NCBI GenBank assembly: GCA_020851465.1
Contig: JADZCR010000001.1
Location: 62,001-126,000 of the forward strand
Reading direction: 5' to 3'
Length of the DNA: 64,000 nucleotides
Source: Phycisphaeraceae bacterium
GTDB lineage: Bacteria; Planctomycetota; Phycisphaerae; Phycisphaerales; Phycisphaeraceae
The notes beneath the pieces are model-generated. The model saw nothing but the letters and a program-made list of their open reading frames with translations, was not told where the DNA came from and made no database searches. This document shows, in pieces, positions 40,260-64,000 of this stretch (positions are counted from its first letter, which is position 1; each line of letters starts with the position of its first letter). The translations under genes were made by a program, and so were the position numbers.

Positions 40260-40909
40260 GAATGACAGCACGAAATATTTTGACGTTGGGTGCGGCTGCT
40301 GTTCTGCTGCTGGCTGTCGCGGTCAGTGCTCGCACGATCACTCTCACGGATGAGTCTTCCGAGCGGGCGGCGAGCATCTGGGAAGGTTCGCCGCATGCGA
40401 GCTGGGTGGGCTACGAAGCTGCCGCCGGAAATCACACCACGACGATGATCGACGTCCGGCGTGACTCAGGGTTTCTGCTGCAGATTCCGATCAACAAAAT
40501 TCCGGAAGGCAACCGGATCACCAAGGCGGAGCTATTGATCCCGCTGAATTACACCTATGCAGCGGACGCGAAGCTCCACGTCTGGCGCGTGATTCCCGAC
40601 TGGGGTCCGGGAGTCAGTTGGGAGAACAGCACGATCCGCCCCAAGGTCATACCCTGGGCAATGCCCGGAGCGCGCGGCAGCTCGTCGGATCGGGCGACCA
40701 AGCCCACCGCCATCGTAACCCTTCGCAATGGTTCCACCACCGAGCTGATCGCCAACGTCACCGAAGACGTGGAGATGTGGTACAGCGGATCAGCCAAAAA
40801 CAACGGCTGGCTTTTCACCCTCGAAGAAGACACCGTGGCGCGATTCCTGCCGCCCTGCTACTCGTACCGAGGCAGTTGGAAACTCCGCATCACCTACGAG
40901 CCGCAGTGA
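40256..40909 (+). CDS. Secreted DNRLRE-like beta-sandwich protein
   Basis: A 217-residue protein starting in an ATGA overlap with the previous gene. A signal peptide (TLGAAAVLLLAVAVSARTI) is followed by a carbohydrate-binding-like jelly roll. Its features are FLLQIPINKIPEGNRITKAELLI, LHVWRVIPDWGPGVSWENS and VTEDVEMWYSGSAKNNGWLF, which are typical of the DNRLRE/disaggregatase-related family seen in extracellular planctomycete proteins. A substrate-binding or structural module is the likely role. Confidence 0.68.
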   Translation: MRMTARNILTLGAAAVLLLAVAVSARTITLTDESSERAASIWEGSPHASWVGYEAAAGNHTTTMIDVRRDSGFLLQIPINKIPEGNRITKAELLIPLNYTYAADAKLHVWRVIPDWGPGVSWENSTIRPKVIPWAMPGARGSSSDRATKPTAIVTLRNGSTTELIANVTEDVEMWYSGSAKNNGWLFTLEEDTVARFLPPCYSYRGSWKLRITYEPQ

Positions 40910-48087: not shown

Positions 48088-49104
48088 ATGACCGCAGCTC
48101 CAACCCCAACTCGGCCGCCCACGAGCCTGATGCGCTCGATCATCCAGAAGCTGCGCCGCGCGCTGACCGATACCGGCCAGACGCAGGTGATCACGGAAGT
48201 GATGCAGGGCGGTGATCCGAATCGCTATCTCGATCCGTCGATCCTCTCGAAGGTCGGCATTTCGCCGCTGCTGGCAAAGCTGGTTGTCGAGGGATTCATC
48301 AATGGTCTGCATAAAAGCCCGTTTCACGGATTTTCCGTCGAGTTCGCCGACCACCGTGAGTATGTGCCGGGCGATGACCTCAAATACATCGACTGGCACC
48401 TATTCGCGCGGACCGACCACTACTACATCAAGCGTTACGAGGAAGAAACCAATCTCCGTTGCTATATCCTGCTCGACCGCTCGGCGTCGATGGCCTTCGG
48501 CACGGGCAAAATCACCAAGTGGGATTACTCCTGCTTTCTGGCGACCTGTCTGGCATACCTCATCATCAAGCAGCAGGACGCAGCGGGGCTTGCACTGTTC
48601 GGCGCCAAGCCCGGCATCATGGTTCCCGCCCGCGCCAAGACCGTACACCTGCGGCAAATGATGCAGGTGATGATCAACAACCCGCCGTCTGGTGATACCG
48701 ATGTCGCCTCCAGCCTCCGGGCCATCACGCGAAACCTCAAACGACGCGGGCTGGTCGTCGTCATCAGCGATCTCATCGACGACCCGGAGACGACGCTCCG
48801 CTCGATCCGTCTGCTTGCAAGCCATAAGCATGATGTGATCGTATTTCATGTGCAGGACGCGGCAGAGCTGGAGTTCACCTTTGATGGTGCGACGCTTTTC
48901 AAGGACATGGAAACCGGCGAGGAGTTGGAGATCGACCCCTCAGCCGTGCGTGCGACCTATCTCCAGCGGATGAACGAAGTGTGCGACTTCTACCGCAAGG
49001 GACTGACCGAGGTCGGCATCGATTACCAACTGATCAATACCCGCATGCCTTATGACCACGCGCTGTCGGCATACTTGAAACGCCGGGCAAGGACGAGGAA
49101 GTAA
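48088..49104 (+). CDS. DUF58 family protein with VWA-like domain
   Basis: This 338-residue protein has the DUF58 signature stretch YVPGDDLKYIDWHLFARTD followed by a MIDAS-like LLDRSASMAFG and VVVISDLIDD. DUF58 proteins follow MoxR genes and probably serve as their substrate adaptor. It lacks the N-terminal membrane hairpin found in some family members, so this one is cytoplasmic or peripheral. It begins 55 bases after the moxR-like gene. Confidence 0.9.
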   Translation: MTAAPTPTRPPTSLMRSIIQKLRRALTDTGQTQVITEVMQGGDPNRYLDPSILSKVGISPLLAKLVVEGFINGLHKSPFHGFSVEFADHREYVPGDDLKYIDWHLFARTDHYYIKRYEEETNLRCYILLDRSASMAFGTGKITKWDYSCFLATCLAYLIIKQQDAAGLALFGAKPGIMVPARAKTVHLRQMMQVMINNPPSGDTDVASSLRAITRNLKRRGLVVVISDLIDDPETTLRSIRLLASHKHDVIVFHVQDAAELEFTFDGATLFKDMETGEELEIDPSAVRATYLQRMNEVCDFYRKGLTEVGIDYQLINTRMPYDHALSAYLKRRARTRK

Positions 49105-49192: not shown

Positions 49193-51391
49193 ATGATTAC
49201 TCTCCTGGCGCCGCTGGCATTGTTCGGCGCGGCCCTGCTCGCCATCCCGATTTTGATTCACCTGTTCAAGCCGCGCAAAGTGCGGCAGACGCCGTTTTCC
49301 AGTCTGCGCTGGCTGCATCTGACGCAGCAGAAACTCGCCCGACGCATCAAGTGGCATCAGGTGTTGCTCTTTCTGCTCCGTGCTGCGTTTATTCTGCTGC
49401 TGGTGCTTGCGCTGGCTAAGCCGATGCTCGCTCCGCGCGGCTCGACCGGGCTGACTGAACGATTCATCGTCCTCGATGTCAGTCGGAGCATGAGCTACCA
49501 GCCGACGGGACGTGAAAGCCCGATTGATCTGGGAAAGAAAATCGCGGTTGATCTGGTGACCAGCGGCATGGCGGGCGACCGCACGACCGTGCTGCTGACG
49601 GGCACGTCAACCCGCTCACTGGGGCCGCTGGCACGCGACCCGCAGATTTATCTCGCGGCGCTCAAGGCGGCAGAAGCGACCAGCAGCGATACCGATCTGA
49701 CCTCGTCGCTCCAGGTCATCCGTCCGATGCTCGCTCGGCGGCGGCCGGGTACCACCGGTGAAATCTACTTCATCACTGACAACCATCAGCGGGCGTGGCG
49801 TCAGGGTGAAATCGCGGGCTTTCTCAAGGATCTCGACGCCCAGGTGAAGGTGAAGGTCATCGATGTCGGCGTCAACGCGGCGCAGAACGCATGGATCGCC
49901 GACGCTGAGCTGATCCCCATCGGCGAAGGACGACGGCTGATCCGCGTGAAAGTCGGCGGCGTGGGGGACGCTTCGCAGGAACGCACCGTCAAGCTCACCG
50001 GTCTGGCGGGACTTGCGGAGCTTTCAACTAAAGTGAAAGTTCAACCGCGGGGTCTGGTGCAGGCGGACATCGAATTACCCGCAGGCTACAGCCTGACCGG
50101 CAAGGTCGCTCGTATCTCGCTCGATCCGCCCGACGCCTTACCCAGCGACGACGACTTTTTCCTCAATCTGGATTCCCATGCACAGGTCAAGGTGCTCCTG
50201 GTCGAAGCAGAATCATCACAGACCGAATCTCTGCGGCCGGGGCTGTATATCGCCAAGGCACTCGAAGCGCTGGCGAAAAACGGCCGCGCGCTTCAACTGG
50301 TGATGCGGACGCACACGTCGGTGCAGCCCGCTGATATCGTCGATGCCGATGCGGTGATTTTTGCGGAAGTTCCCGAAGTGCCGGACAACGTCGTCAAGGC
50401 ACTGGAGACGCGCGTGAAGACCGGAGGAGGTCTGGCGATCTTCCTGGGGCCGGAAATTCAGCAGAACTTCTACAACACTCGGCTCTGGAATCCCGCGACG
50501 CCTTCCGATTGTCTGCTCCCCGTTGCACTGAAAAAACCAACCGACGGAGACAGGCTCGATCCGATCACGAACATCGAATGGTCGCATCCGCTGCTGGCAC
50601 CGATTTATGACCCGGTGTTTGGCGATCTGCCGCAGGTCCAGTTCCAGGGGCATTTCGAGTTTGAAGGCGAGCCTAGAGACAGCCAGGTGCTGGCTCGGAT
50701 CAATTCCCAAACACCTGCGATCATCGAGCGAGCGCTCGGTATCGGCCGCGTCGTGCTGTTCAACACCACCGCCAACGATGTCTGGAGCAACCTTCCCCGC
50801 AAAAAGAGTTTCGTTCCCTTGATGGATCGTCTATTGACTCACCTGAGCGGTGCGACGCTCCGGCGGAGCTTTGACGTGGGTGACACGGTGGCTCTGCCGC
50901 TGGCAAACCGATCGGACGAAGGCACCGTGACGGTCACCAGTCCCACCGGCAAGAAGCTCACCCCCGCGTTGCGGGAGGAGGCCGGCCGCACCGTGATGCG
51001 ACTCGACAATCTCACCGAGCCGGGTGTTTACCGCGTTGAGCAGACCACACAGGCAAGCGCAGGCGGTCCCGGAGGGTTGGCGACGTTCGCCTTTGTCGTA
51101 CAGACCGGCCGAGGTGACAGCGTGCTGACGCCGACGGAGACCGACACACTCCGCAAGTGGTGGGATCCGGTACCGCTGGACATGGCAACGGCAGAGATCG
51201 CGCAGAAGGCGGTCGCCACACAATCACGCTACGAGCTTTGGCCGTGGTTGCTGGCACTGGGCGCGATCTTACTGCTGGCGGAAATGTTTTTCGTGCATTG
51301 GCTCTGTCCGAAGGTCAACCCCGCCGTCGCCGAATCCATGGTGCCGCGACAAGGCATCTTCACCGTCCGCACCGCCGAGAAAGTGGCGTAA
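49193..51391 (+). CDS. BatA-like membrane protein with VWA domain
   Basis: A 732-residue protein with the BatA N-terminal double membrane segment (LLAPLALFGAALLAIPILIHLFKPRK, then a second at ~60-80). A VWA domain follows with an intact MIDAS motif, D-V-S-R-S-M, near residue 97. A beta-rich middle and a GATase-like region around 330-480 come next, with a final TM near 690-712. VWA proteins of this type sit in the membrane and bind the MoxR ATPase or client proteins through Mg2+. Confidence 0.85.
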   Translation: MITLLAPLALFGAALLAIPILIHLFKPRKVRQTPFSSLRWLHLTQQKLARRIKWHQVLLFLLRAAFILLLVLALAKPMLAPRGSTGLTERFIVLDVSRSMSYQPTGRESPIDLGKKIAVDLVTSGMAGDRTTVLLTGTSTRSLGPLARDPQIYLAALKAAEATSSDTDLTSSLQVIRPMLARRRPGTTGEIYFITDNHQRAWRQGEIAGFLKDLDAQVKVKVIDVGVNAAQNAWIADAELIPIGEGRRLIRVKVGGVGDASQERTVKLTGLAGLAELSTKVKVQPRGLVQADIELPAGYSLTGKVARISLDPPDALPSDDDFFLNLDSHAQVKVLLVEAESSQTESLRPGLYIAKALEALAKNGRALQLVMRTHTSVQPADIVDADAVIFAEVPEVPDNVVKALETRVKTGGGLAIFLGPEIQQNFYNTRLWNPATPSDCLLPVALKKPTDGDRLDPITNIEWSHPLLAPIYDPVFGDLPQVQFQGHFEFEGEPRDSQVLARINSQTPAIIERALGIGRVVLFNTTANDVWSNLPRKKSFVPLMDRLLTHLSGATLRRSFDVGDTVALPLANRSDEGTVTVTSPTGKKLTPALREEAGRTVMRLDNLTEPGVYRVEQTTQASAGGPGGLATFAFVVQTGRGDSVLTPTETDTLRKWWDPVPLDMATAEIAQKAVATQSRYELWPWLLALGAILLLAEMFFVHWLCPKVNPAVAESMVPRQGIFTVRTAEKVA

Positions 51392-51403: not shown

Positions 51404-53653
51404 ATGCCGCACCAATTCTCCCTCAACGTCGTGCCTCTCCTACCCGTCTGGGCCGTTCTGGCGGTCGGCGCGCTGCTGCTGCTGCTCTTGGCGCAAGGCT
51501 CGCTGTTGCTACTGCGGAAAAAGGTTCCCTCCCGATGGGTCGCCATCCTCGGCGTGTTGCGCGTGGCGATCGTGATCGTCTTCGTGGTCTGCCTGCTCCA
51601 GCCGACGATTTCCTTTCATCGTGACATCCGGCAATTGCCGGACCTGGTCCTGATGGTCGATACGTCGATGAGCATGAACAACAAGACCAGCTCCGGCCAG
51701 ACCCGGCTCGCCGACACTCTCTCTGACCTGCGGTCGAGCAGTCTGATGGCGGATCTCCAGAAGCAATACAACATTCACTGGTTTGCCTTCGACCGCACGG
51801 CTTACCCGATCGAGTCAGCTGATCTGGCGACACTCAAAGCGGTGGGCGACACCACGCGATTCTCCGACAGCTTGACGACGGCATGGGACTATCAGCGTCA
51901 GGCTGATGGTCAGACGACTACCGCCGGGAAAAATGCGTCCGCTCGCGTGGTGCTCATCAGCGACGGCAACGATCTGGGAACGGATGATGTCGTCGATGCA
52001 GCGCGCCGACTGGGTGTCACGATCGACACGCTCGCGCCCAAGCCTTCCATCGCCGGTCAATCCGCCAGCCGTGTCGTCATCTCCAGCGTGCAGAGTCCGC
52101 GCCGTGTGCTGCTGGGATCAGAAGCACAATTCGTCATCACCTTGCGGGCCGATGGCACACCCTCAGGTCCGGTGACTGTCGAACTGCTCGATGACAACAA
52201 GCCGGTGCTCTCTCAGGAAGTGGTTTTCAAGCAGGGAGAAAACGAAAAGCAGGTCATCATCACCGACCAGCCGACGGAGGTTGGACTGCGGCCATATGAG
52301 ATTCACCTCTCCGGTGCTGCCGCCCCCGCTGCGGATGCCGCCAAACCTTACAAACTCAGCGTCGGCGTGCTCGACACGAAAACAGAGGTGCTGTTTATCG
52401 AGGAGACCTGGCGATGGGCGTTCAAATTCCTGCGTCAGGTACTCGAAGACGATCCCAGCTTCTCAATGACAGCGATGCTTTCGCGCGGACCTGGACGATG
52501 GGTTCAGTTCGGCGAACCTGACCGCAAGGTGCAGCTAGGCGGCTTCCCGCAGAGTAAGTCGGAAATCGAGTGGTACGACACGATCGTGCTGGGTGATGTC
52601 AACCCGAAGCGCTGGCCGCGCTCGCTGGCGCCGGCGATTCATCACCTCGTCGCTGAAGAGGGCAAGTCGCTGGTCCTCATCGCAGGACCGTCACTGGCCG
52701 CGGTGGCGGAGACGCCGGAGATCGCATCGCTGCTGCCGGTCGAGTTGACCCGCGAGTCAGCACTTCCGGTCGAAGGGCCTATCGAGATTCGCAAGAGCCG
52801 TGAGGGTGCAGCGTCGCCGTTCTTTTTCAATCAGGTTGGCAGTCTGCCTGCGCTTGACCGGATCTACCCACCGCTGCGAAAGCGGCCGGCGGCGACGATC
52901 CTGCTCGAAGCGACACGCCAAGGCAACAACTACGGCAACATCATCGTGATGGCGGAACACACCGTCGGTAAGGGACGGGTGCTCTTCATCGGCACGGATA
53001 CGCTTTGGAAATGGCAGATGTTCGGCCAGCAGGACGAGCACGGCGTGACGCCGTACAAGGCATTCTGGCAGCAGGCGCTGCGGGCACTGGCTCCGATCCG
53101 TCCGTCCACCGGCGCGGTGAACCTTTACGTCCAGGCGGAGCGCACCCGTTACGAGGCAGGCAAGCGCGTCGTGCTGCACGCCCAGATCAAGTCCGACCGA
53201 CCGATCACCCAGCCCGTGCTGACCGCGACGGTCACGCTACCCAACGATAAACAGATCCCGCTGGCACTGGCTGCGGACCCGACGAAACCTAACAGCTACA
53301 GCACCGAGTTTGAGAGCACGATGGCCGGACGGCATAAAATCACCGCATCCGTAAACAGCGAAGGCAAACTGCTGGCGGAAGTGGTCACCCCCATCGACAT
53401 CGAAGAGCCGCGAGGCGAAGCGTCCGGCACGGATGTGGACGCTGCTAATCTCGCCCGCATCGCCTCCGCCACCGGCGGAAAGGCGATCAACCTCGACGAT
53501 GCGAAAACCTGGCCGACTTCCGTTACCACGGATCGTGTCACACTCGATAAGCGGCACGACTGGGATCTATGGAACAACTTCACGCTGCTGGTCGTGCTGT
53601 GCCTGCTGCTGGGAACGGACTGGTTGCTGCGTCTGCTGCGCGGGTATGTTTGA
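51404..53653 (+). CDS. VWA / glutamine-amidotransferase-like membrane protein
   Basis: This 749-residue protein has two N-terminal TM segments (~10-35 and ~44-65) and a VWA domain with MIDAS D-T-S-M-S-M near 86. An Ig-like domain lies at ~215-320, and a class-I-GATase-like Rossmann domain at ~325-520 (DTIVLGDVNPKRWP, LIAGPSLAAV). A beta-sandwich and a final TM (NNFTLLVVLCLLLGTDWLLRLL) follow. The catalytic triad of true amidotransferases is not evident, so the domain is probably structural. The protein fragment at the far right end of the window has the same kind of C-terminus, indicating a paralog. It ends the envelope operon. Confidence 0.82.
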   Translation: MPHQFSLNVVPLLPVWAVLAVGALLLLLLAQGSLLLLRKKVPSRWVAILGVLRVAIVIVFVVCLLQPTISFHRDIRQLPDLVLMVDTSMSMNNKTSSGQTRLADTLSDLRSSSLMADLQKQYNIHWFAFDRTAYPIESADLATLKAVGDTTRFSDSLTTAWDYQRQADGQTTTAGKNASARVVLISDGNDLGTDDVVDAARRLGVTIDTLAPKPSIAGQSASRVVISSVQSPRRVLLGSEAQFVITLRADGTPSGPVTVELLDDNKPVLSQEVVFKQGENEKQVIITDQPTEVGLRPYEIHLSGAAAPAADAAKPYKLSVGVLDTKTEVLFIEETWRWAFKFLRQVLEDDPSFSMTAMLSRGPGRWVQFGEPDRKVQLGGFPQSKSEIEWYDTIVLGDVNPKRWPRSLAPAIHHLVAEEGKSLVLIAGPSLAAVAETPEIASLLPVELTRESALPVEGPIEIRKSREGAASPFFFNQVGSLPALDRIYPPLRKRPAATILLEATRQGNNYGNIIVMAEHTVGKGRVLFIGTDTLWKWQMFGQQDEHGVTPYKAFWQQALRALAPIRPSTGAVNLYVQAERTRYEAGKRVVLHAQIKSDRPITQPVLTATVTLPNDKQIPLALAADPTKPNSYSTEFESTMAGRHKITASVNSEGKLLAEVVTPIDIEEPRGEASGTDVDAANLARIASATGGKAINLDDAKTWPTSVTTDRVTLDKRHDWDLWNNFTLLVVLCLLLGTDWLLRLLRGYV

Positions 53654-53799
53654 CCGACACATCCATCGCGAAGTTCACGAGACACTAAAAGGCTGGAGAT
53701 TTACGGGAATAACAGCCATTTCCCGCCATGAAGCGGAAGTCTGACGCTGTCGTCGATATCATTCTCATAACGACAAGCGATTTAATCAGGCATCCCGCC

Positions 53800-56646
53800 A
53801 TGAGTAATTCCAACCCTGCCTCTGAACCGTCCATACCCGGAGCCAACGGAACCGACATTCTGAGCCTTCCGTTTGCCGAGGGGCTGTATGAAGACTTCCT
53901 CCGCGACCCGTCATCGGTTCCTGAAGATTGGCGAAGGTATTTCGTTCAGATCACCCCGGCGAATGGTCGGTCGATGCGGGTGCGGCCATCAATGCGTCCC
54001 GCGAGCCTGTTTAATCCGACCGGGGCGAATGGCCACGGCCCAGCCGGCTCCACGTCGGCCCCTGCTGTTCCCGCTGCTGCTGCGCAATACCTTCAGGATC
54101 GCGTCGATCAACTCGTCCGCCACTACCGCGTCCGCGGCCACATGATCGCACAGATCGACCCGCTGGGTATCCCGCGTCCCGACATGCCTGAGCTTGACTA
54201 CCGCTATGTCAAACTCACGGAGGAAGACCTCGACAGGACATTCTCCACCGTCACCCTCGGCGGAGCGGATGTGCAGACGCTGCGTGCCCTGCTCCAGCGA
54301 TTGAAAAACACCTACTGCCGATCGATCGGTGCGCAGTTCATGCACATCGACGATGAGGAGGTCCGGCAGTGGCTGCAAAATCGGATGGAGGGCACGGAAA
54401 ACCGCATCGAGCTGACACGCAAGGAGCAGCTGCGCATTCTCACCCGCCTGACTGATGCGGTGATCTTCGAGGAGTTCATCCAGAAAAAATTTGTCGGGGC
54501 CAAGAGTTTCAGCCTCGAAGGAGGCGAGAGCTTGATTCCCCTGCTCGATCTGGCCATCGAAAAGGCGGGGGAACAGCAGATCGATGAGATCGTGCTGGGC
54601 ATGGCGCACCGCGGCCGCCTGAATGTGCTGGCGAATATCATGGGCAAAAGCCCGGAGATGATCTTCCGGGAGTTTCAGGACGCCACCAGCGGCAATCAGC
54701 CCCCACGCGGCGACGTGAAATATCATCTGGGCTACAGCACCGACTGGACCACGCAAACCGGTCACAAGATTCATCTTTCTCTGGCGTTCAATCCCAGCCA
54801 CCTCGAATATGTAAACTCCGTGGCACTGGGCCGTATGCGCGCCAAAATGGATCGCGTTGGCGACTGCGACCGCGTGAAGGGCATGACGCTGCTGATTCAC
54901 GGCGACGCGGCGTTTGCCGGTGAAGGTGTCGTGCAGGAGACGCTTAATCTCAGCGAGCTTGACCCCTACAGCACCGGCGGCACGCTGCACGTGATCGTCA
55001 ACAACCAGGTCGGGTTCACCACACCTCCCGAACAGGCACGCTCCAGCACTTACGCGACGGACATCGCCAAGATGCTCCAAAGCCCGATCTTCCACGTCAA
55101 CGGCGAGGACTGCGAGGCTGTGGCGCAGGTGGTGCGGCTGGCGATGGATTTCCGCAAAGTGTTCAAGCGTGACGTGGTAATCGACATGTACTGCTTCCGC
55201 CGCCGTGGGCATAACGAAGGCGACGAGCCGAGCTTCACACAGCCGTTGATGTATGCGGCCATGGATCTGCGTAAAAACACGCGCGAGGGATATCTCGAAC
55301 ATCTCCTGAAGCTGGGCGGCGTGACGCGACAGGAAGCGGATCGCATCGCCGCCGATCGTCACGAGGCACTTGAGCGGGAGCTGGCTGAAGCGCGTGAACC
55401 GGAGGAAGGAGCCGGTGAGCCAAGCGATCGATCGCGCATCTGGATCGGGTATCGAGGCGGGCGAGAGAAAGAGGTGGCGGACGTGCCGACAGGCGTGCCG
55501 CGTGCCCGGTTGACACAGTTACTCGAAAAGCTCGCGGAGCTTCCGGAAGATTTCATTCTTCATCCAAAGCTGGCGCGGTTCATCAAGGGGCGGCGTGACA
55601 TGGCTGCGGGTGTTCGACCCATCGACTGGTCCGCTGGTGAGGCACTGGCGATGGCGTCACTGGCGACCGATGGAGTACGGGTGCGGATGACGGGGCAGGA
55701 CTGCGAGCGCGGCACATTCAGCCACCGCCACGCCGTGCTGCACGACGTGGAGGACGGTCACCGCCACATGCCGCTTCAGCACCTGACGCCCGATCAGGCC
55801 CAGGTCGAGATTTACAACAGCCCGCTCTCCGAGGCAGGCGTGCTGGGATTCGAGTACGGCTACAGCCTCGATTTCCCAAGCGCACTGGTGATATGGGAAG
55901 CACAATTCGGAGACTTCATCAACGCGGCACAGGTCATCGTCGATCAATTCATCGTCAGCGCGGAACAGAAATGGCGTCGTCTGAGCGGACTGGTCCTGCT
56001 CCTGCCGCATGGCTTTGAAGGTCAAGGCCCGGAGCACTCCAGCGCCAGACTCGAACGCTTTCTGGCACTAGCGAGCGAGGACAACATTCAGGTCTGCAAC
56101 GCGACCACTCCCGCACAGTATTTTCACCTGTTGCGAAGGCAGGTACTCAGGCCGTGGCGCAAACCGCTGATTGTCATGTCACCCAAGAGTCTGCTGCGAC
56201 ATCCTGAGGTCGTCTCGCCGCTGGATGATTTCGAGTCCGGAACCTTCCAGCGAGTGATCGACGATGCCCAGATCAGTGAACCCGGCAAGGTCAAACAGAT
56301 TCTGCTCTGTTCGGGCAAGATTTTTTACGAGTTGAAAAAGCGACGTGATGAGATCGCGCGGACGGACACCGCCATCGTGCGAGTTGAGCAGTATTATCCC
56401 GTACCGGAAGCGGAGCTTCGAGCGATCGTGAAGCGTTACTCCAACGCTGATCGAGCGATCTGGGTACAGGAGGAAGGCCGAAACCACGGAGCGTGGCGGT
56501 TTTTCCATTTCGAGTTTGGTGACAAACTGTTCGACAAGCTGCCGTTTACGGGTATTTATCGCCCGCCGTCTGCCAGCCCGGCGACGGGATCGAGCAACCA
56601 GCACAAGATCGAGCAGGAAGCGATTTTGAAGGAAGCACTGGGATAA
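53800..56646 (+). CDS. sucA: 2-oxoglutarate dehydrogenase E1 component
   Basis: A thiamine-diphosphate enzyme of about 948 residues from the ATG at 53800, the normal size for SucA. An N-terminal SucA motif (FAEGLYEDFLRDPSSVPEDWRRYF) is followed by the LGMAHRGRLNVL block and GDAAFAGEGVVQETLN with VNNQVGF for TPP/Mg binding. The C-terminal transketolase-like domain contains GQDCERGTFSHRHAVLHD, and EEGRNHGAWRFF closes the enzyme. It decarboxylates 2-oxoglutarate and hands the succinyl group to the E2 encoded 112 bases downstream. Confidence 0.95.
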   Translation: MSNSNPASEPSIPGANGTDILSLPFAEGLYEDFLRDPSSVPEDWRRYFVQITPANGRSMRVRPSMRPASLFNPTGANGHGPAGSTSAPAVPAAAAQYLQDRVDQLVRHYRVRGHMIAQIDPLGIPRPDMPELDYRYVKLTEEDLDRTFSTVTLGGADVQTLRALLQRLKNTYCRSIGAQFMHIDDEEVRQWLQNRMEGTENRIELTRKEQLRILTRLTDAVIFEEFIQKKFVGAKSFSLEGGESLIPLLDLAIEKAGEQQIDEIVLGMAHRGRLNVLANIMGKSPEMIFREFQDATSGNQPPRGDVKYHLGYSTDWTTQTGHKIHLSLAFNPSHLEYVNSVALGRMRAKMDRVGDCDRVKGMTLLIHGDAAFAGEGVVQETLNLSELDPYSTGGTLHVIVNNQVGFTTPPEQARSSTYATDIAKMLQSPIFHVNGEDCEAVAQVVRLAMDFRKVFKRDVVIDMYCFRRRGHNEGDEPSFTQPLMYAAMDLRKNTREGYLEHLLKLGGVTRQEADRIAADRHEALERELAEAREPEEGAGEPSDRSRIWIGYRGGREKEVADVPTGVPRARLTQLLEKLAELPEDFILHPKLARFIKGRRDMAAGVRPIDWSAGEALAMASLATDGVRVRMTGQDCERGTFSHRHAVLHDVEDGHRHMPLQHLTPDQAQVEIYNSPLSEAGVLGFEYGYSLDFPSALVIWEAQFGDFINAAQVIVDQFIVSAEQKWRRLSGLVLLLPHGFEGQGPEHSSARLERFLALASEDNIQVCNATTPAQYFHLLRRQVLRPWRKPLIVMSPKSLLRHPEVVSPLDDFESGTFQRVIDDAQISEPGKVKQILLCSGKIFYELKKRRDEIARTDTAIVRVEQYYPVPEAELRAIVKRYSNADRAIWVQEEGRNHGAWRFFHFEFGDKLFDKLPFTGIYRPPSASPATGSSNQHKIEQEAILKEALG

Positions 56647-56648
56647 CC

Positions 56649-56665
56649 ACCCGTGCGGCACGGGT
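56649..56665 (+). other. Hairpin between sucA and sucB
   Basis: ACCCGTG pairs with CACGGGT around CGG directly after the sucA stop. There is no T-run. It may slow 3' decay or partly terminate, setting the E1:E2 ratio. Confidence 0.3.
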
Positions 56666-56758
56666 CAGGCGGTTTCACTGTGCCGCGAACTCACTGCCTC
56701 GTTGAGTCGCGGACTCAAAGGGGTATCCTGATACGAGACAAGCACGGAAGGAAAGTTC

Positions 56759-57874
56759 ATGGCTCTTGAGCTGAAAGTGCCGACTGTCGGCGAATCGATT
56801 ACCGAGGTACAGATCGGACGCTGGCATAAGTCCGAAGGCGACAGCGTCGCCAAAGACGAGACGATTGTTGAGATTGAGACCGACAAGGTCACCGTTGAGC
56901 TGCCCGCGCCCGTCGCTGGAACCATCGGCAAAATCATCAAAAAGACCGGCGAGGCGGCTGCGGTGGGTGATGTCATCGGCATGCTCGACGCCAACGGCTC
57001 CGCATCCACACCCGCACAAGCACCGCCGAAATCCGTACCTGCACCGTCACCGACAAAACCTGCGCCGACGGCGAAGGAAGCGCCTCCCTCCGCGCCGGTT
57101 AAGCCCGCCGCTGCAGCGCCAACAACCGCAGCACCCATCAAACCGCAAGTCGCCGTCGAGCGCACACCGCCCGCCGGGGATGAAGAAATCATTCCGATGA
57201 CGCCGCTGCGCCGCCGCATCGCTGAGCGGCTCGTCGAAGCGCAGCACAGCGCCGCGTTGCTGACCACCTTCAACGAAGTCGATATGTCGGCTGTCATGGC
57301 ACTGAGGGCACAGCTCCAGGAAGCATTTCAGGCGGCGCATCAGGTGAAGCTCGGCTTCATGTCGTTCTTCGTCAAGGCGGCAATCCATGCGCTGAAACTA
57401 GTCCCGCAAGTCAACTCCGAAATCCGCGGCACGGATGTGATCTACAAAAATCACTACGACATCGGCATCGCCATCGGCGGGGGCAAGGGGCTGGTCGTCC
57501 CCGTGCTCCGCCGCGCAGAGCGCATGAGCTTTGCGGAAATCGAAAAATCCATCGCCGAGTTCGCCGCCCGCGCCAAGGAAAACAAAATCGCGCTCGAGGA
57601 GCTTCAGGGCGGCACCTTCACCATCAGCAACGGCGGCGTGTACGGGTCACTGCTCTCGACACCGATCGTCAATCCTCCGCAAAGCGGCATCCTCGGCCTG
57701 CATGCGATTCAGGATCGTCCCATCGCCAAAGATAAACAGGTCGTGATCCGCCCGATGATGTACATGGCGCTGACCTATGACCACCGCGTAATTGACGGCC
57801 GTGAGGCGGTGACGTTCCTCAAGAGTATCAAAGAAGTGATCGAGGAGCCTGCGCGGATGCTGGTGGAAGTGTGA
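56759..57874 (+). CDS. sucB: Dihydrolipoyl succinyltransferase (E2 of 2-oxoglutarate dehydrogenase), no visible subunit-binding domain
   Basis: A 371-residue protein. The lipoyl domain (1-78) has the lipoylated lysine K43 in ETDKVTVE. An Ala/Pro/Lys linker follows (~80-140), then the catalytic domain (~142-371) with active-site H342-R-V-I-D-G347. Usual SucB proteins (~400 residues) carry a ~35-residue peripheral subunit-binding domain between linker and catalytic core that docks E3. Here the linker runs straight into [17 protein letters not shown] and no such motif can be seen. The short length agrees with its absence. Confidence 0.93.
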
Positions 57875-57917
57875 ATGACCGTGCGACCGAACAGCACCAA
57901 GCGGGGAATTGAGCAGA

Positions 57918-59207
57918 TCATTTCATCGCAGGGCGCAGCAGCTTTACGTCCGCCCAGCCGACCTGATCGCCGACATCCTGGCCGTGTCCGTAATCAACCT
58001 CCAGCGTGAGACGGCGGACGCCCGTGAGGTTTACTCCGAGGTCAACGGGCTTCTGATCGCCGCGCAGGTCAGGGTTTTCATAGAGCGGTTTGCCGTCACC
58101 AAGGACACGCACCGCTGCTCGACCAAGCTTGCCGTCGGGCTGGAGCATGCCGACCCTGGCGCGGAAAAACTCAAACTTTCCTCCGATGTCATAGTGCAGC
58201 AGACTGCGGGAATGCATCGCGATACCTTTGGCGTAAGTGCCGTCCGTCAAAGTCAGCCCTTTACCGCCCCGCAGTGATGAGTCGATGCGATAGGGCAAAA
58301 TCCGGTCGAAGTAGGGAACCTGCTCGACCTTGATCGGCGTCAGCTCTGACAGGTACGTCAATCGACCGTTGATGACGTTGATCTTTGACACCCGCGCCAG
58401 CGGCAGGAGCACGTCAGCTGCCCAAATGGTCCTGACAGCCGCGGCATCATTCTTCAGGCTTGTCCATTCGCCGGAAATCATGTCGCCTGAAACAAGCGTG
58501 AAGCTCATCTGGAGCTTGTCGGACGGCGTGTATTGGTGCGTTGCGAGTACGATTCCAACAAGCCTTGCCGGATCAATCTGTCGTTCCTCGCCGCCGTAGC
58601 GGAAGATCAGGGCATCGTTGGTCAAGCCCACCACCGTGCCCCGCACACCCTGGATGCGGTCATCAGAATGAGATTTGACCAGAGCGATATCTTCAAGACC
58701 GCCATTGAGTGCCACCGATTCTGGAACATCATCGCGTAATGAGCCGGCTTGCCATATCTCCTTCACGTCTTGAAGTGGAATCGGGATTGGTTTTCCCAAA
58801 TCTGAACTGGAAAGCGTGATCGTCGTAGCGGACCAGCCATCAATGAAGCCGGTAAGCTGATCGCCGCACAGGAGCACGAGTCGCCACGAGATCGCATCTG
58901 CGGGGCGGCCAGCCGCCGGTTGTGTAGTGGATGGTGAGCCGGGCTGTGTCGTACTCGACGGTTCGACCACAGCGGGGTTGACGGGAACAAATCCCGCCAT
59001 GTCGATCGATACGATTTCATCCAGCCGGACGCTCTGACGCTTTTCCTTATTGCCGTCTCGGACAGCAACGGTCAGCGTGCCGGCATCGAGAGAGACAAGC
59101 TGACCGCTGAAATCCTTTCCATCAATGGTGCGCACCGTGACGCCTTGAGCGACTGATCCGACAACCAGCATGAACAGGACGGCCAGTAACTTTATTCGCT
59201 GTAACAC
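57918..59207 (-). CDS. Secreted protein with C-terminal NPCBM domain
   Basis: About 430 residues. The GTG at 59207 is preferred because GGGGA lies upstream and it begins a clean signal peptide (LQRIKLLAVLFMLVVGSVAQG); an ATG at 59252 is also open. Two similar beta-rich segments follow (TIDGKDFSGQLVSLDAG, LLCGDQLTGFIDGWSATT and VSGDMISGEWTSLKND have the same SGDxxxG pattern). The C-terminal NPCBM carbohydrate-binding domain has KGIAMHSRSLLHYDIGGKFEFFRA and VDYGHGQDVGDQVGWADVKL. It is the last gene of a leftward envelope operon. Confidence 0.75.
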   Translation of the reverse strand: MLQRIKLLAVLFMLVVGSVAQGVTVRTIDGKDFSGQLVSLDAGTLTVAVRDGNKEKRQSVRLDEIVSIDMAGFVPVNPAVVEPSSTTQPGSPSTTQPAAGRPADAISWRLVLLCGDQLTGFIDGWSATTITLSSSDLGKPIPIPLQDVKEIWQAGSLRDDVPESVALNGGLEDIALVKSHSDDRIQGVRGTVVGLTNDALIFRYGGEERQIDPARLVGIVLATHQYTPSDKLQMSFTLVSGDMISGEWTSLKNDAAAVRTIWAADVLLPLARVSKINVINGRLTYLSELTPIKVEQVPYFDRILPYRIDSSLRGGKGLTLTDGTYAKGIAMHSRSLLHYDIGGKFEFFRARVGMLQPDGKLGRAAVRVLGDGKPLYENPDLRGDQKPVDLGVNLTGVRRLTLEVDYGHGQDVGDQVGWADVKLLRPAMK

Positions 59208-59276
59208 GGAAATATTCCCCGAGAGAAATGTTGGAGAGGCTGATGGCGGCATGGAAAATATAGACTCCTGACCTCA

Positions 59277-59891
59277 TCAGGGCACGGACGGCTGGGTAGT
59301 CGCGGATTCGTCGCGCTCCACCTGTTCCTGCGCCAGCCGACGATAGTAACTCTGAAGCACCGCCTCGAAACCGGGTGGGAAGCCCTCGCTCGTGGCTTGA
59401 AGAATCCGCTCACGCTGCTTGGGAGAAAGTTCCGCCCAGTTTTTTCGACTGGCTTTGGGTGCGTGCAGATCGCCGATCCCACCCGGCCCGCTGGCGATAT
59501 TCGAGTCTCTCATCGGACTGTTTGGGTTCGCAGGGGACATTCCCTTCCCCCCGCCGCTGCCCTTGCCGCCGCCTCCTCCGCCGGTCTGTTTTTCCAGTTC
59601 GCGGATGATCGAATCGAGATCCTTGATGATTTTGTTCTGCCTATCCTGCACGAGTTTGTCGGTCTGCTCTTTGGATAGGTCCGTTACCACCGCGTCCATT
59701 GCCTGAGTGATCTTTCCGATCCGATCGCCCTGATCTGCATCGCGTGATCCGCGCAGTCCCATATCGCCGGGCTTGATTTTGGGTTGCGGGAGACGGGGCA
59801 GGAGTTGATCGCCTCCGTCGAGGCCGCGAGCAAAGGCGGGCAACGTGAACAGCACCACGACCAGTAAGACACTCGAAGCAATTCGCATCAT
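59277..59891 (-). CDS. Secreted small helical protein with Gly-rich linker
   Basis: About 204 residues from tandem ATGs at 59891/59888 (GTG at 59894 also possible), with AAGGG upstream. The signal peptide is RIASSVLLVVVLFTLPAFA. After it come a helical segment (DRIGKITQAMDAVVTDLSKEQTDKLVQDRQ), a poly-Gly/Ser/Lys linker, then a helix-rich end (ELSPKQRERILQATSEGFPPGFEAVLQSYYRRLAQEQ). The end matches the short LPxKyREqI-x(n)-G-P-x(n)-YY-R-L motif seen in small proteins beside MoxR/BatA operons. Its function is unknown. Confidence 0.65.
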   Translation of the reverse strand: MMRIASSVLLVVVLFTLPAFARGLDGGDQLLPRLPQPKIKPGDMGLRGSRDADQGDRIGKITQAMDAVVTDLSKEQTDKLVQDRQNKIIKDLDSIIRELEKQTGGGGGGKGSGGGKGMSPANPNSPMRDSNIASGPGGIGDLHAPKASRKNWAELSPKQRERILQATSEGFPPGFEAVLQSYYRRLAQEQVERDESATTQPSVP

Positions 59892-59978
59892 CACACCCTT
59901 TCGTGGTCTGCGAAGAAGCTGCCCCGCGCTTCATGCAGGAGCGGAAGACGAGGAAACGGCCTGTGTTCCTCAGCCGCC

Positions 59979-61430
59979 CTACTCCTTGACGCGACGCTGG
60001 ATCATCTCAAGCGTGTTGCGCACCTGCGATTGATGCTCGCGCACGCTGCCGACTTTCTCTTTGAGTTCCGGAGGCAGGTCGGCTTCCGCACGCGCTCGGC
60101 GGCCATCCACGTCCAGCGTCTCTTCGTTGACCCGGACCTGAAGCAGTCGCACGATGCGCAGCTCCGAGAGCATCTTGTTTCTGCCGTCGTTCTGTCCCTG
60201 ACCGCCCGGCTGGTTTCCGTTTTCCTGATTTTCGCCGTCTTCAGGCGGGGCGGAATCTTTCACCGCATCGATCAACTCCTGGAGATCCTTCTCGATCTCT
60301 TTCAGTATGGCGATAACGGTGTCGTTAGCGCGGCCGGTCTTAAGATCACCTGACACATAAATCATCCGCCTCTGAATGGATTGCAAGGCTGGCGGCAGCG
60401 CAATACTGAACTCCGTCTCCTGAATCAGCCGAATCGCCTGGTCAGTCATCTGCACGATGCGATCCTCTGACGCAGCCAGCCTCTGCGTGCTCAACACAGC
60501 CTCGCGTTCACCGGCCAGCACCTTAGGTGCCAGTGCCTGCGTGGTCTGGCGCACCTTCACCTGGCGCTCCAGAATCTGCGTGAGATTGGCCATGATCTGT
60601 TCGCGGACCTGTTTCTGAATGTCGTTGACGAGCTGATCCCGCTCTTTCTTGAGTTTGTCACGGGCGTCCTGAAGCTTTTTCGCAGCATTGCCCTGCTGGC
60701 CTCCCGCAGCACCGGCTTTCTGCTTGCCAAGGTTGCCTTCGGCACTCTTCATCTCCTTGCCCGCATCACCCAGATCACCGGCGGCATCGCGGGACTCCGG
60801 GCCAAGATCCTTCACCTCCTGCTCGATGGCTTCGGTCTTTTCGCGGTTTCGCTCCTGCTCACCTTTGAGATTCTCGAAGTCACCAGGCTCGACAGCCTCA
60901 CCTTTGCCCTGCTTGTCCGCAAGCTCATCGCTGAACTTTGCCTCTCGAAGCTGCTCCTTGATCGCAGGGTCCAGCTTGGTGAGGATTGCTTCGATCTTCC
61001 TGATGCGGTCGAGCTTGATCGCCAGGTCCAGATCATTCGAGAGCAGGAGCGTGCGCAGCTCCTCAAGTTTGCGGATCACATCACGCTGCTGCTCGACGGC
61101 GGCGGCAAGCTCACGCTTGTCGATCAGCAGCCGCACGTCCTTCATCTGCTCGACAATGAGTTCCTCACGCGCCTTCTGCACAGCCAGAAGCAACCGCGCA
61201 GAGTCCTGCGGCTCAAGGTCACGGGTCAGCTCCGCGAGCTTGAACATCCGCTCCTGAAGCTCCCGCATGTAGGCCTCAGCTTTTTGTTGATCAAACTCGA
61301 TCTGCTCCGCCAGATCGATCGACTTCTTCGCCGTCACCGCATCGGCAGCGCGAGCCGGCGACACCAAGCAGGACAACAACATCGCGAGAATCGCAACCAT
61401 CAGCGACAGGCGAGTGTTTCCTTTAATCAT
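59979..61430 (-). CDS. Secreted long coiled-coil protein
   Basis: About 483 residues from the ATG at 61430, which starts a clean signal peptide (LSLMVAILAMLLSCLVSPARAADA). Nearly all of the rest is predicted helical and highly charged: EQIEFDQQKAEAYMRELQERMFKLAEL, KKLQDARDKLKKERDQLVNDIQ and RNTLEMIQRRVKE. A Gly/Gln/Asn-rich break occurs near 400 (ENQENGNQPGGQGQND). It is probably a periplasmic partner of the DUF4175-like protein encoded just upstream. The low-complexity helix pattern gives no specific family. Confidence 0.65.
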   Translation of the reverse strand: MIKGNTRLSLMVAILAMLLSCLVSPARAADAVTAKKSIDLAEQIEFDQQKAEAYMRELQERMFKLAELTRDLEPQDSARLLLAVQKAREELIVEQMKDVRLLIDKRELAAAVEQQRDVIRKLEELRTLLLSNDLDLAIKLDRIRKIEAILTKLDPAIKEQLREAKFSDELADKQGKGEAVEPGDFENLKGEQERNREKTEAIEQEVKDLGPESRDAAGDLGDAGKEMKSAEGNLGKQKAGAAGGQQGNAAKKLQDARDKLKKERDQLVNDIQKQVREQIMANLTQILERQVKVRQTTQALAPKVLAGEREAVLSTQRLAASEDRIVQMTDQAIRLIQETEFSIALPPALQSIQRRMIYVSGDLKTGRANDTVIAILKEIEKDLQELIDAVKDSAPPEDGENQENGNQPGGQGQNDGRNKMLSELRIVRLLQVRVNEETLDVDGRRARAEADLPPELKEKVGSVREHQSQVRNTLEMIQRRVKE

Positions 61431-61495
61431 TTTGTGACCTTGATTTGCAGCAACGGACGGTCTCTCATGGTACGCCGTTGATGCACCTCCTTCAA

Positions 61496-63724
61496 TCATT
61501 TCTGGCCAGGCGGCACCGGTGCGGGCTGCGTCGAAGACGCCGGCCGGGAAGCTGGATGATCCTTGAACAGACCCTCCACCTCCTTTTGACGAATGGCATC
61601 GGTACTTTGTTTCACCTGATTCTGCAGTTTGATGACCTCGTTGAGTTGATTCAGAACATCCACAAAACTATCCCAATCAGCCATCTGTTTGAGAATGTCC
61701 CGCATCTGGACCACGATCCGCTCCTGACGGGTGATCGCTGAAGTCAAACCCTGACTGATTTTGTTGGCATCCCGGTTACCGAGCATGGCATCAAGTGCTT
61801 CACGTTGCTGAGTCATCAATCCTGCATCAAGCTGTCGGAGCGGTTCGAGAATCTTCTTCTCCATGAGATCAAACGCTTCAGGACCGCCGAGCCCGTTGAG
61901 CCGCATTTCGGTCATGGTCTCAGCCATGCTCACCGCGACACGGGCTGCGTCACGCTGCACCGCGCGGTGCTGCCGTGCGATTGCGTCCAGAGCATCGTTC
62001 GACAAGAGCGCTTCGAGTTGCTCACGGACTTTATCTGCTTCTTCCAGTGCTTTACGGAACCGCGAACGGTCGCCCTGCTGTCGGATGAGGATGTCACGGA
62101 ACAATTCCTCCGGCGAGACGATGCGGAAACTCACCAGCCGCGACTGGCCGGTCTGCGCGCCGATGTATCGCTCGTCACTGGCCGTCGCCAGCAGTGTCAG
62201 CAGCGAACCCACTGCAGGTTTGAGCGGTGTCAGTTCCAGCACACGCTGATCCTGGACTTCGAGTTGAGTCGCTGGCTTTACTGGACCGTAGATCTTTTCA
62301 ATCGTCTGCGTGCCAGCATTGACATCCGTTGCGTCGGGCGGGGTGAGCCGACTGACCAACTGCACGTCGGCGAGACCAAAGTCATCTCTGGCGAGCACCG
62401 TCAGCGGGATTTTTGCGATCGGCGTGACTCGCGATTTCACTCCGTTGTAAGTCAGTGTCAGTTTCGGAACCGCATCAGCTTTGAGGCCGATCATGATCGG
62501 TACAGGGAGTGAAGACAGTCCGGCCTGTGCGGAAATCAGCTCGATCTGAAGTGCGACCGGCTGCTCGTGAATCCATTCGGCCCGGTAGTGCGTCGGATCG
62601 ACCCGCTCCAGTCCGGCAGGCTGCGTCGTCGCATGCTTGAGCCTGGCGTCAGAGAGCGGCACATTCGATGTGACCGTCAACGTCAGCTTCGTCCTGGGTA
62701 GAAAAGCCAAATCCGATTCACCAGCACTGAACGTATGCGTCTGCGGCTCACGATTCGTCGGATGTTTGGAAATCAGTTCGATGTGCGTGATGCGCGGGCG
62801 ATCGACGGGAAACAGCATAAAGGAGTCAGGCGCATCATCACCGCCACCCAACTGCACCTCCACCTCCTGCTGCACGGGGGCGAAGTCGTGTCGGAAATCT
62901 CCATCAGCAAATCGCGTCATCGTGCTGGCGACCAGCGGTGTATCACCGCCGCGCACGCGGATCCAAACGGAGTCCGGCGAAGTGCTCTGCTGACCATTGA
63001 GGACACGCAGCACATAAGGCTCGCCGCGAGGCACGACAATCCGTCCATCCTCAAGGCCAACGATGACCAGATGCGTCTTCTGCGGCCAGGGTTGACGGGA
63101 GCCGGCGAACCACCTTCGCGCCCAGAGTCCAGCCGTCGCCGGCCAGATCACTGCCCAGCACACCGGCAGCAGCAGCAGGCCCAGGATGATCGCAAGATGC
63201 AGTCGCTGACGGTTGCGATCAAGAGGTTGAAGGAAGTCGATGTCCGCAAGAGATTCGTGGCTGCGCTGCACAGCAGCGAGCACCATCGCCGAAGACGGCG
63301 GTGAGCCGCCTTCAAGCAGATCAGGCAACTGAAGCACGGTCGCGACGCGCTGGGAGATGGGGACGCGGGTTTCGGTCGTTTGGCTGTTGCGGGCGGATTC
63401 ACGCTGTGCCGCCTCGATCGCCACCGCCAGCGTAATCATGTCGAGCGGATCGCGCAGCGGACGGATGAGCCACCGCCACACCGCATAGCCTGCGATCACC
63501 AGTGCGACTGTCAGAAATATGATGCGGGTGACGACATTATTGAGATGAAATTCGTAATCGATTACGAAGCTCAACAGCGCCAGCACCAGCACCACGCCGA
63601 ACACTCGCGCCAGACCGCTGATGGCGAGGTGCAATTTTACCGCCCGACGGAAGCGCGCGAGTCGCCGCGCCAGCCCGCGTTGCAGGTCGGTGAGGTCAAC
63701 GGATTGGAGGTCGAGCGTCGTCAT
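61496..63724 (-). CDS. DUF4175-like membrane-anchored protein (second copy)
   Basis: This 742-residue protein has N-terminal TM segments near 38-57 and 63-85 and a third near 180-205 (LAIILGLLLLPVCWAVIWPATAG). Beta-rich extracytoplasmic domains (~220-520) and C-terminal helices and coiled coil (~560-720) follow. Layout and position resemble the 1293-residue protein at 34995-38876, without that protein's long C-terminal extension. It lies between a VWA/GATase-like membrane protein upstream and a secreted coiled-coil protein downstream, all leftward. Confidence 0.7.
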   Translation of the reverse strand: MTTLDLQSVDLTDLQRGLARRLARFRRAVKLHLAISGLARVFGVVLVLALLSFVIDYEFHLNNVVTRIIFLTVALVIAGYAVWRWLIRPLRDPLDMITLAVAIEAAQRESARNSQTTETRVPISQRVATVLQLPDLLEGGSPPSSAMVLAAVQRSHESLADIDFLQPLDRNRQRLHLAIILGLLLLPVCWAVIWPATAGLWARRWFAGSRQPWPQKTHLVIVGLEDGRIVVPRGEPYVLRVLNGQQSTSPDSVWIRVRGGDTPLVASTMTRFADGDFRHDFAPVQQEVEVQLGGGDDAPDSFMLFPVDRPRITHIELISKHPTNREPQTHTFSAGESDLAFLPRTKLTLTVTSNVPLSDARLKHATTQPAGLERVDPTHYRAEWIHEQPVALQIELISAQAGLSSLPVPIMIGLKADAVPKLTLTYNGVKSRVTPIAKIPLTVLARDDFGLADVQLVSRLTPPDATDVNAGTQTIEKIYGPVKPATQLEVQDQRVLELTPLKPAVGSLLTLLATASDERYIGAQTGQSRLVSFRIVSPEELFRDILIRQQGDRSRFRKALEEADKVREQLEALLSNDALDAIARQHRAVQRDAARVAVSMAETMTEMRLNGLGGPEAFDLMEKKILEPLRQLDAGLMTQQREALDAMLGNRDANKISQGLTSAITRQERIVVQMRDILKQMADWDSFVDVLNQLNEVIKLQNQVKQSTDAIRQKEVEGLFKDHPASRPASSTQPAPVPPGQK

Positions 63725-63726
63725 AT

Positions 63727-64000
63727 TCAGATCAGCCGATATTTTTTACGAAGCAGCCATTCGGCGACGATAGCCGCCAGAATCGACACCCACAGCAACG
63801 GCGCGTGCCAGACTTCCTGCCGGTCTTCCAGCACGCGGGCTACTCGTTTGACCTTGAAGGCGTTCGCCAGTTCGTCAATCTGCTCGAAGTTGTAAACCGC
63901 CCCGCCGGAAGCTTTGGCGATCGCGTCCAAAGTCGCCCGGTCCTGTGTTGGGCGGTCGTATTCAAGGCTGGGTAATTCCACCGGAAACTGGAGCGTGGCT
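63727..64000 (-). CDS. C-terminal part of a VWA/GATase-like membrane protein (cut by window end)
   Basis: The frame is open to base 64000 (about 90 residues seen), so the gene begins outside the window. The visible part has LDAIAKASGGAVYNFEQIDELANAF, typical of the end of VWA/GATase-like BatA-neighbour proteins. A final TM and a basic end (HAPLLWVSILAAIVAEWLLRKKYRLI) follow. The protein ending at 53653 closes the same way (LLLGTDWLLRLLRGYV), which suggests paralogy. The stop is two bases before the start of the DUF4175-like gene. Confidence 0.7.
   Translation of the reverse strand, partial: ATLQFPVELPSLEYDRPTQDRATLDAIAKASGGAVYNFEQIDELANAFKVKRVARVLEDRQEVWHAPLLWVSILAAIVAEWLLRKKYRLI

Follow-up and report, generated by a model that had tools for sequence, protein, structure and literature searches.

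A Bat-type MoxR operon with a divided DUF4175-like protein, probably one of about eight separately conserved modules in a Phycisphaeraceae genome

The stretch of 64,000 nucleotides analysed here (the window, bases 62001-126000 of contig C1 of the Phycisphaeraceae bacterium assembly GCA_020851465.1) ends within a leftward operon, named module B, which is probably (at a rough probability of 0.55) a Bat-type MoxR envelope operon encoding a chaperone machine, one of about eight separately conserved paralogous modules of this genome. The best reading of module B is a variant of the Bat-type machine that bears a split DUF4175-like protein, a toroid protein and an NPCBM protein. A preliminary description, made from the letters of the window, had placed a leftward set of five genes at 57918-64000, and the five open reading frames (ORFs) are indeed there. 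When the contig was read 12 kb past 64000, with the numbering continued, the genes for BatA, DUF58 and MoxR that the description had envisaged were present, followed by a toroid gene. Module B is thus a complete operon on the minus strand, from 57918 to about 71559, in the order toroid, MoxR, DUF58, BatA, VWA/GATase1-like protein, DUF4175-like protein, coiled coil, small helical protein and NPCBM protein.

The first gene, B01 (70498-71559), encodes an alpha/alpha-toroid protein in which the toroid domain PF13243 (SQHop_cyclase_C) passes its Pfam cut-off (34.4 vs. 26.1 bits). It is followed by B02 (69382-70482), a MoxR AAA+ protein with AAA_3 and the lid PF17863 over the cut-off, by B03 (68391-69464), a DUF58 protein (PF01882, 146.4 bits), and by B04 (66245-68458), a BatA protein (PF07584, 69.4 bits; TIGR02226, 75.8). 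B05 (63727-66183, of which 63727-64000, the C-terminal end, lies in the window) is a VWA/GATase1-like membrane protein of 818 residues recognised by blastp to A13, its counterpart in module A, the operon that the window carries at 33-54 kb. B06 (61496-63724, 742 residues) was assigned by hhalign as the N-terminal part of a DUF4175-like protein, with three transmembrane segments, a beta-sandwich array and a coiled coil. B07 (59979-61499) is a coiled-coil protein and B08 (59277-59894) a small helical protein, both with a signal-like N-terminus (hydrophobic segments at residues 31-49 and 3-21, respectively); they were assigned by hhalign, B07 to a protein of another module, M8, and B08 also by the tail profile described below. 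The last gene, B09 (57918-59252), encodes an NPCBM-domain protein (PF08305, 93.8 bits; hydrophobic segment 14-32) that is probably exported. All these genes lie on the minus strand. No TPR or SH3 components (BatB-E) were recognised by Pfam among the nine genes, at E 0.1 in the window and E 0.01 beyond it.

B01 was also examined as a squalene/hopene cyclase and was rejected, being far below the cut-offs (32.6 vs. 322.7 for TIGR01787 and 25.9 vs. 431.1 for TIGR01507). A likeness to alpha-2-macroglobulin was considered, given the Ig-like array and the toroid in one operon, and no thioester-domain family matched B01 in Pfam at E 0.01.

Regarding the rest of the genome, 14 DUF58 matches were found in 3.4 Mb, the highest number among the 61 genomes examined (the next is 13, in two larger genomes), some of them split or partial. 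The modules were counted from the DNA around these matches, so a module without DUF58 would escape the count. MoxR, DUF58, BatA and VWA genes stand together at eight loci: A, B, M3 (C1:146-157 kb), M4 and M5 (C6:248-275 kb), M6 (C5:320-332 kb), M7 (C5:118-126 kb) and M8 (C1:324-336 kb, more exactly 323.7-336.1). Three further MoxR-DUF58 loci have an incomplete set (C5:168-173 kb, C18:15-17 kb and C5:74-85 kb), and a partial DUF58 match at C1:531 kb has no module gene beside it by blastp. In the stretches around the loci, a DUF4175-like protein is present in seven of the eight modules (none was found in M3), a toroid gene in four (B, M5, M6 and M8) and a DUF4159 gene in three (A, M3 and M4).

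Judged by profile alignment, B06, B07 and B08 correspond to one DUF4175-like protein divided in three. The B06 profile aligns nearly full-length to the N-terminal part of A04, the unsplit protein of module A, and of the M4-M8 proteins (E 7e-27 to 3e-57, hhalign). B07 aligns to residues 681-1164 of the M8 DUF4175-like protein (E 7e-22), and its profile gave no alignment to A04 or to the M4, M5, M6 or M7 proteins, so the equivalence of B07 is shown with the M8 protein only. B08 aligns to a separate small protein of M8 (E 4e-22). The three pieces recur in genome G049, and the same split order with B07 is found in six named loci.

Furthermore, a hidden Markov model (HMM) was built only from the tails of the B08 and M8 small proteins and was searched in 1729 ORFs of the fetched loci. 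After its own sources, it next finds the extreme C-termini of fused DUF4175-like proteins, with E 2e-8 for M5, 1e-6 for M4 and 2e-5 for M6. For the M7 type the values are 7e-4 to 7e-3 in three relatives and 3.5 for the M7 protein of this genome. These C-termini precede all other ORFs, of which the first match has E 0.63. The orthologue of A04 in genome G027 has E 1.3, and A04 itself and the M6 protein of G057 are absent from the matches, which makes the tail no more than suggestive in module A. A short C-terminal tail, either fused or separate, is therefore common to the B, M8, M4, M5, M6 and M7 types. Its motif, drawn by eye, is Y/F-x6-Y-Y/F-x2-L/I-small residue, and it is retained where the tail is the separate protein B08.

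The signal-like N-termini of B07 and B08 suggest an extracytoplasmic location for the C-terminal half of the DUF4175-like protein. B07 weakly matches the DUF4175 family PF13779 (residues 67-286, E 0.001, 17.6 bits vs. a cut-off of 27.3); B06 and A04 are unmatched, and this genome has no match to the family over the cut-off. The AlphaFold model of B06, with a predicted local distance difference test (pLDDT) of 80.8 and a predicted template modelling score (pTM) of 0.45, shows N-terminal helices, the beta-sandwich array and a C-terminal coiled coil. Its fold search in the PDB returned mostly Ig-like strings among the 50 rows listed, with TM-scores of 0.10-0.18 by query and nothing informative. 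The DUF4175 annotation is also carried by AdvA of Acinetobacter baumannii, which excerpts of PMC7481262 describe as an essential cell-division protein with two transmembrane helices.

Concerning the membrane proteins, the BatA and VWA proteins of A and B present two N-terminal transmembrane segments, a net positive stretch before the second one and one C-terminal segment; DUF58 has no transmembrane segment and carries a VWA-type metal motif. By the positive-inside rule and the export signals, the VWA domains of BatA and of the VWA/GATase1-like protein would be periplasmic, and the BatA-like protein BB0173 has been described with three transmembrane helices and a periplasmic VWA domain (excerpts of PMC5700661). 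The DxSxS motif occurs in A11, A12, A13, B03, B04 and B05, and in the VWA proteins D86, S88, S90 and D187 are invariant in 18 rows. In the predicted model of A13 (pLDDT 79.6, pTM 0.49), the fold search showed that the VWA part resembles 4jdu and 3ibs (Z 16.1 each) and the GATase1-like part 3rht (Z 23.6, 2.7 A over 212 residues) and 2gk3 (Z 23.7). The consensus of the GATase1-like region in 18 rows is GGGLxFxAGE, without the cysteine that an active glutamine amidotransferase would have as nucleophile behind the central strand, the position being judged by eye.

Modules A and B are homologous gene by gene. The blastp comparison gave 53% identity for MoxR (2e-126), 43% for DUF58 (3e-80), 23% for BatA (5e-21), 23% for the VWA/GATase proteins A13 and B05 (2e-30) and 31% over 90 residues for the DUF4175-like proteins (2.5e-4); in the profile comparison, the whole length of B06 aligns to residues 34-816 of A04 (E 7e-27). 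In both modules DUF58 comes directly after moxR. The similarity that the preliminary description expected between the paired VWA/GATase and DUF4175-like proteins is therefore real, and its mirror image of the 33-54 kb operon holds as far as complete, homologous MoxR/DUF58/BatA/VWA/DUF4175 modules are concerned; the closeness of A, sucAB and B is absent from the other loci examined. The different secreted partners that it saw in the two versions stand in part: the partner sets partly differ, and the coiled coil and the small protein turned out to be pieces of the shared DUF4175-like protein.

The evolutionary relations of the modules were examined in concatenated trees of four proteins. Module A pairs with G027:C60, from another genus, and module B with G049:C44, from another family of the order, each with support of 100/100 and with orthologue identities of 57% and 58%, respectively. 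In single-gene trees the A pair is recovered twice with 100/100 and the B pair with 99/99 (MoxR) and 93/79 (DUF58). Each of M3 to M8 clusters with loci from other genomes in the concatenated tree. Moreover, B groups with six Planctomycetota loci, including those of Singulisphaera acidiphila and Paludisphaera soli, in a clade of 8 rows (100/100) away from A, and a joint A+B clade was rejected with 39 rows (approximately unbiased test, p 1.4e-6). So the module types are old and separate, and the nearest relations among them are weakly resolved.

The 39-row tree consists of the smaller set plus 17 named loci, with the long rows L135 and G049_C5, which had met, removed; an intermediate quick tree had added 18 named loci. 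The named loci come from a scan with the MoxR of module B, in which at least 80 were kept, the nearest of them from Planctomycetota, and 37 of the 80 were read for gene content. Rows with long branches or missing genes were excluded from the concatenated trees (G000_M10, G000_M11, G016_C140, G016_C22 and G049_C80), and the larger trees additionally excluded G000_M9 and G027_C21. From double MoxR proteins, the second domain alone entered the trees.

Partner genes were followed in the relatives as well. In six of six named loci (L077-L082) the order is toroid, MoxR, DUF58, BatA, VWA, DUF4175 and B07. B08 is present in the two whose flank extended far enough, and the NPCBM gene was either beyond the fetched flank or not found. 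L084 and L095 share this order, with B07 scoring weakly (79 and 30), yet lie outside the B clade. G049 has B01-B08 and then an NPCBM protein (39%), and in G018 an NPCBM protein (34%) likewise accompanies B01-B07, B08 being unmatched in the locus at E 1e-4. Overall, B07 is found at E<=1e-10 in 10 of the 151 genomes of the order, own genome counted. On the side of module A, the G027 locus holds counterparts of A04 (48%), A05 (33%), A06 (41%), A07 (46%) and A09 (66%) together with the core genes, and a counterpart of A08 was not recognised in it; among the other 60 genomes, close matches to A13 (49-55%) were limited to G027 and to G016, where the match lies at a contig end. Since they recur with the module types in relatives, the partner sets look like stable properties of the two types, with one genome as the basis for A. 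The specialisation proposed in the preliminary description is therefore a fair term, as each set is retained with its module type in other genomes.

Several observations weigh against the reading of module B as one of a series of conserved envelope machines. The BatA proteins of M5 and M8 lack DxSxS, and a Kyte-Doolittle scan at 1.6 misses the C-terminal transmembrane segment in the VWA proteins of M3 and M5-M8 and in the BatA proteins of M4 and M8. The hydropathy scan found an N-terminal hydrophobic segment in nine of the 16 B07, B08 and M8 small proteins (5/8, 3/4 and 1/4, respectively); in L080 the only hydrophobic segment is at residue 112, and the remaining proteins are signal-like by eye only. 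With respect to the trees, the 25-row set does not reject the A+B clade (p 0.118), similarity to the MoxR of B itself guided the choice of the added named rows, the model was LG+G4 without mixture, several rows deviate in composition (A included in the 25-row tree), and the deep order of the module types is weakly supported. In the openly licensed literature searched, mostly judged by titles and the starts of abstracts, such planctomycete modules were not described and no function for them was found. Finally, an envelope role has a competing reading, since excerpts of PMC11834572 see the Bat operon as a supplier of reducing power and report heat and oxidative-stress phenotypes for the moxR and batA mutants of Riemerella.

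Between the two modules, which converge on them, lie sucA (53728-56646, plus strand), encoding the E1 component of 2-oxoglutarate dehydrogenase and with homologues 58-64% identical in the same family, and sucB (56759-57874, plus strand), an ORF for the E2 component that adjoins sucA in 19 of 20 loci of relatives. The real start of sucA may be the in-frame ATG at 53800, as the majority of the homologue matches do not start before residue 23. None of the 20 other sucA loci examined (29 other genomes matched; about 8 kb per side, several contigs being short) carries a module gene; therefore, the A-sucAB-B neighbourhood is most likely incidental. Conversely, sucA was absent from all 80 named MoxR loci listed (3-21 kb each), with one weak sucB-like match (score 70), and neither G027 nor G016 has a sucA match at E<=1e-50, as is the case for 31 of the 61 genomes of the relatives set. 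At 53000-60500 no promoter-like site was detected (2.0 expected), and the nine terminator-like sites, vs. 6.9 expected, are within chance.

Other explanations of the two modules have to be weighed against these data. The preliminary description had proposed an old duplication of one machine followed by specialisation, and the adjacent, opposed arrangement of A and B, their homology gene by gene and the result of the 25-row tree would suit a local, inverted duplication. Nevertheless, the same genome has six more full modules, A and B each pair with a foreign orthologue at full support, their joint clade is rejected by the larger tree, and no B-type gene was recognised in the 20 kb downstream of module A in G027; M4 and M5, by contrast, are in tandem both in this genome and in G027. 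A duplication yielding A and B is hence improbable, and that part of the description is not supported. The position of sucAB raises another question, namely whether one or both modules chaperone 2-oxoglutarate dehydrogenase. A13 and sucA are on the same strand, with 146 bp from the end of the A13 gene to the in-frame ATG at 53800, and in Francisella, MoxR reportedly binds pyruvate and oxoglutarate dehydrogenase, both of which require it for optimal activity (excerpts of PMC5368251 and PMC11834572). This seems very unlikely here, given that sucA and module genes do not occur together in the 20 and 80 loci mentioned above and that G027, whose complete module A is the closest one, gave no sucA match at E<=1e-50.

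The modules could also be MoxR-vWA conflict systems of the immunity-like kind treated in PMC7159879, available in excerpts. There are several MoxR and VWA pairs in one planctomycete genome, the bpMoxR scores of both MoxR proteins are over the cut-off (38.2 and 47.2 vs. 27 bits), and A05, which has no Pfam match, could judging by eye be a beta-propeller, the third component of one class. However, AAA_3 fits both MoxR proteins far better (203 and 210 bits), PADLOC matched none of the ten proteins given to it, the partners look exported or membrane-bound, and VMAP, iSTAND, FtsH and an effector were not recognised by Pfam in either module. Both P-loops read GVPGLAKT instead of the GXXXTAKS of part of those systems, and DUF58 is absent from the excerpts of that paper, so that this explanation has hardly any likelihood left. 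On the other hand, the Bat name itself points to devices for aerotolerance, acting against oxygen or oxidative stress with a redox output. The BatA domain is over the cut-off in both modules, and the Riemerella phenotypes and the reducing power attributed to Bat (PMC11834572, excerpts) go in the same direction. Eight differently partnered copies would fit client-specific envelope work better, and a redox device is considered possible but doubtful.

Returning to the envelope machine, its proposed operation is as follows. A cytosolic MoxR AAA+ ring and the cytosolic DUF58 protein would drive or control a complex that BatA and the VWA/GATase1-like protein form in the inner membrane. In the periplasm, the VWA domains of these two proteins would hold the DUF4175-like stalk (B06, B07 and B08) and act on dedicated exported partners, the toroid and the NPCBM protein. 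The machine may serve to assemble an envelope structure or exported complex, or to control its quality, with a different target for each module. The gene content, the homology, the orthology of the types, the division in three and, at sequence level, the signal-like N-termini are observed; the topology, the direction of action and the clients are what we infer. MoxR proteins act together with VWA proteins; the metal site of the latter is believed to bind a peptide of the client, which ATP hydrolysis is proposed to release in remodelled form (partly established knowledge, and excerpts of PMC5700661, PMC3893208, PMC11834572 and PMC7159879).

In comparison with the Bat operon, module B has MoxR, DUF58 and then a BatA with two N-terminal transmembrane segments and a VWA domain, and the VWA fold of A13 is that of the Bacteroides Bat domains 4jdu and 3ibs. 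Unlike that operon, it has the VWA/GATase1-like, DUF4175-like, toroid and NPCBM proteins, and no TPR or SH3 component recognised by Pfam; module A carries the TPR-containing A07. The RL3499-RL3502 (cmdA-D) operon of Rhizobium leguminosarum is not known to contain a toroid or NPCBM gene. This operon, reported to have a MoxR of the MRP subfamily, gives mutants with envelope and morphology defects, as cited in excerpts of PMC3893208 and PMC5700661, and these defects speak for our reading of module B. The DUF4175-like protein differs from the PF13779 family in its beta-sandwich array, its split over three genes and the score of B07 below the cut-off. Within the genome, M8 resembles module B in having a toroid, a DUF4175-like protein and, as a small protein of its own, a tail homologous to B08. 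It differs in that the counterparts of B06 and B07 are fused (1173 residues) and in forming its own clade with orthologues in G027, G049 and G057.

Module A lies on the plus strand. Its genes are A04 (34896-38876), the unsplit DUF4175-like protein of 1326 residues (hhalign with B06; the G027 identity given above is over 1298 columns); A05 (38931-40259); A06 (40256-40909), a small protein; A07 (40950-43709), a PKD/PA14/TPR protein (its G027 identity is over 763 columns); A08 (43706-45304), a right-handed beta-helix protein (PF13229, 43.1 bits); A09 (45301-46923), a DUF4159 protein (PF13709, 232.5 bits); A10 (46992-48032), MoxR AAA+ (PF07726, 202.8 bits; PF17863 over cut-off); A11 (48088-49104), DUF58 (PF01882, 184.1 bits); A12 (49193-51391), BatA (PF07584, 53.8 bits; PF13519, 42.2 bits); and A13 (51404-53653), the VWA and GATase1-like membrane protein, assigned from its predicted structure and fold matches. 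A05, A06, A07 and A08 have a signal-like N-terminus. Upstream of the module, at 31869-32870, a DUF7901 protein has a PEP-CTERM-like C-terminus narrowly under the Pfam cut-off (18.5 vs. 20.7 bits).

Two other modules deserve a comment. M3-type modules encode a single polypeptide with two complete MoxR domains in tandem (805 residues, C1:154348-156765), and across three genomes the first domains form one clade and the second domains another. Downstream of M3, a protein of 1018 residues with F5/8 type C and Ig/Fn3-like domains is perhaps its partner. M4 and M5 stand in tandem and in the same order in two genera, in this genome at C6:248-275 kb and in G027 at C1:34-59 kb, so linked pairs of types can be conserved, unlike A and B.

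Bat/MoxR operons are on record in Bacteroides, spirochaetes, Rhizobium and Francisella. The excerpts consulted differ on their job, which is left undetermined in PMC5700661, assigned to envelope integrity in PMC3893208 and to reducing power in PMC11834572. In this respect, the eight copies of one genome allow a comparison in which the constant part is the engine (MoxR, DUF58, BatA, VWA/GATase and, in seven of eight, the DUF4175-like protein) and the variable part is probably the client. The division of the DUF4175-like protein into three genes, in which both split-off pieces begin with a signal-like sequence, amounts to an experiment by nature on the topology of the protein, and for mutation the conserved tail offers a short target. 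A bolder proposal, which we regard as tentative and rather unlikely in its full form, is that planctomycetes possess some eight parallel MoxR/VWA membrane machines, every one of them an old orthologous type whose exported clients are fixed, and that in each the extreme C-terminal tail of the DUF4175-like protein docks in the VWA metal sites. Through the tail held in the periplasmic VWA sites, MoxR would thus couple ATP hydrolysis across the membrane to the remodelling of exported proteins.

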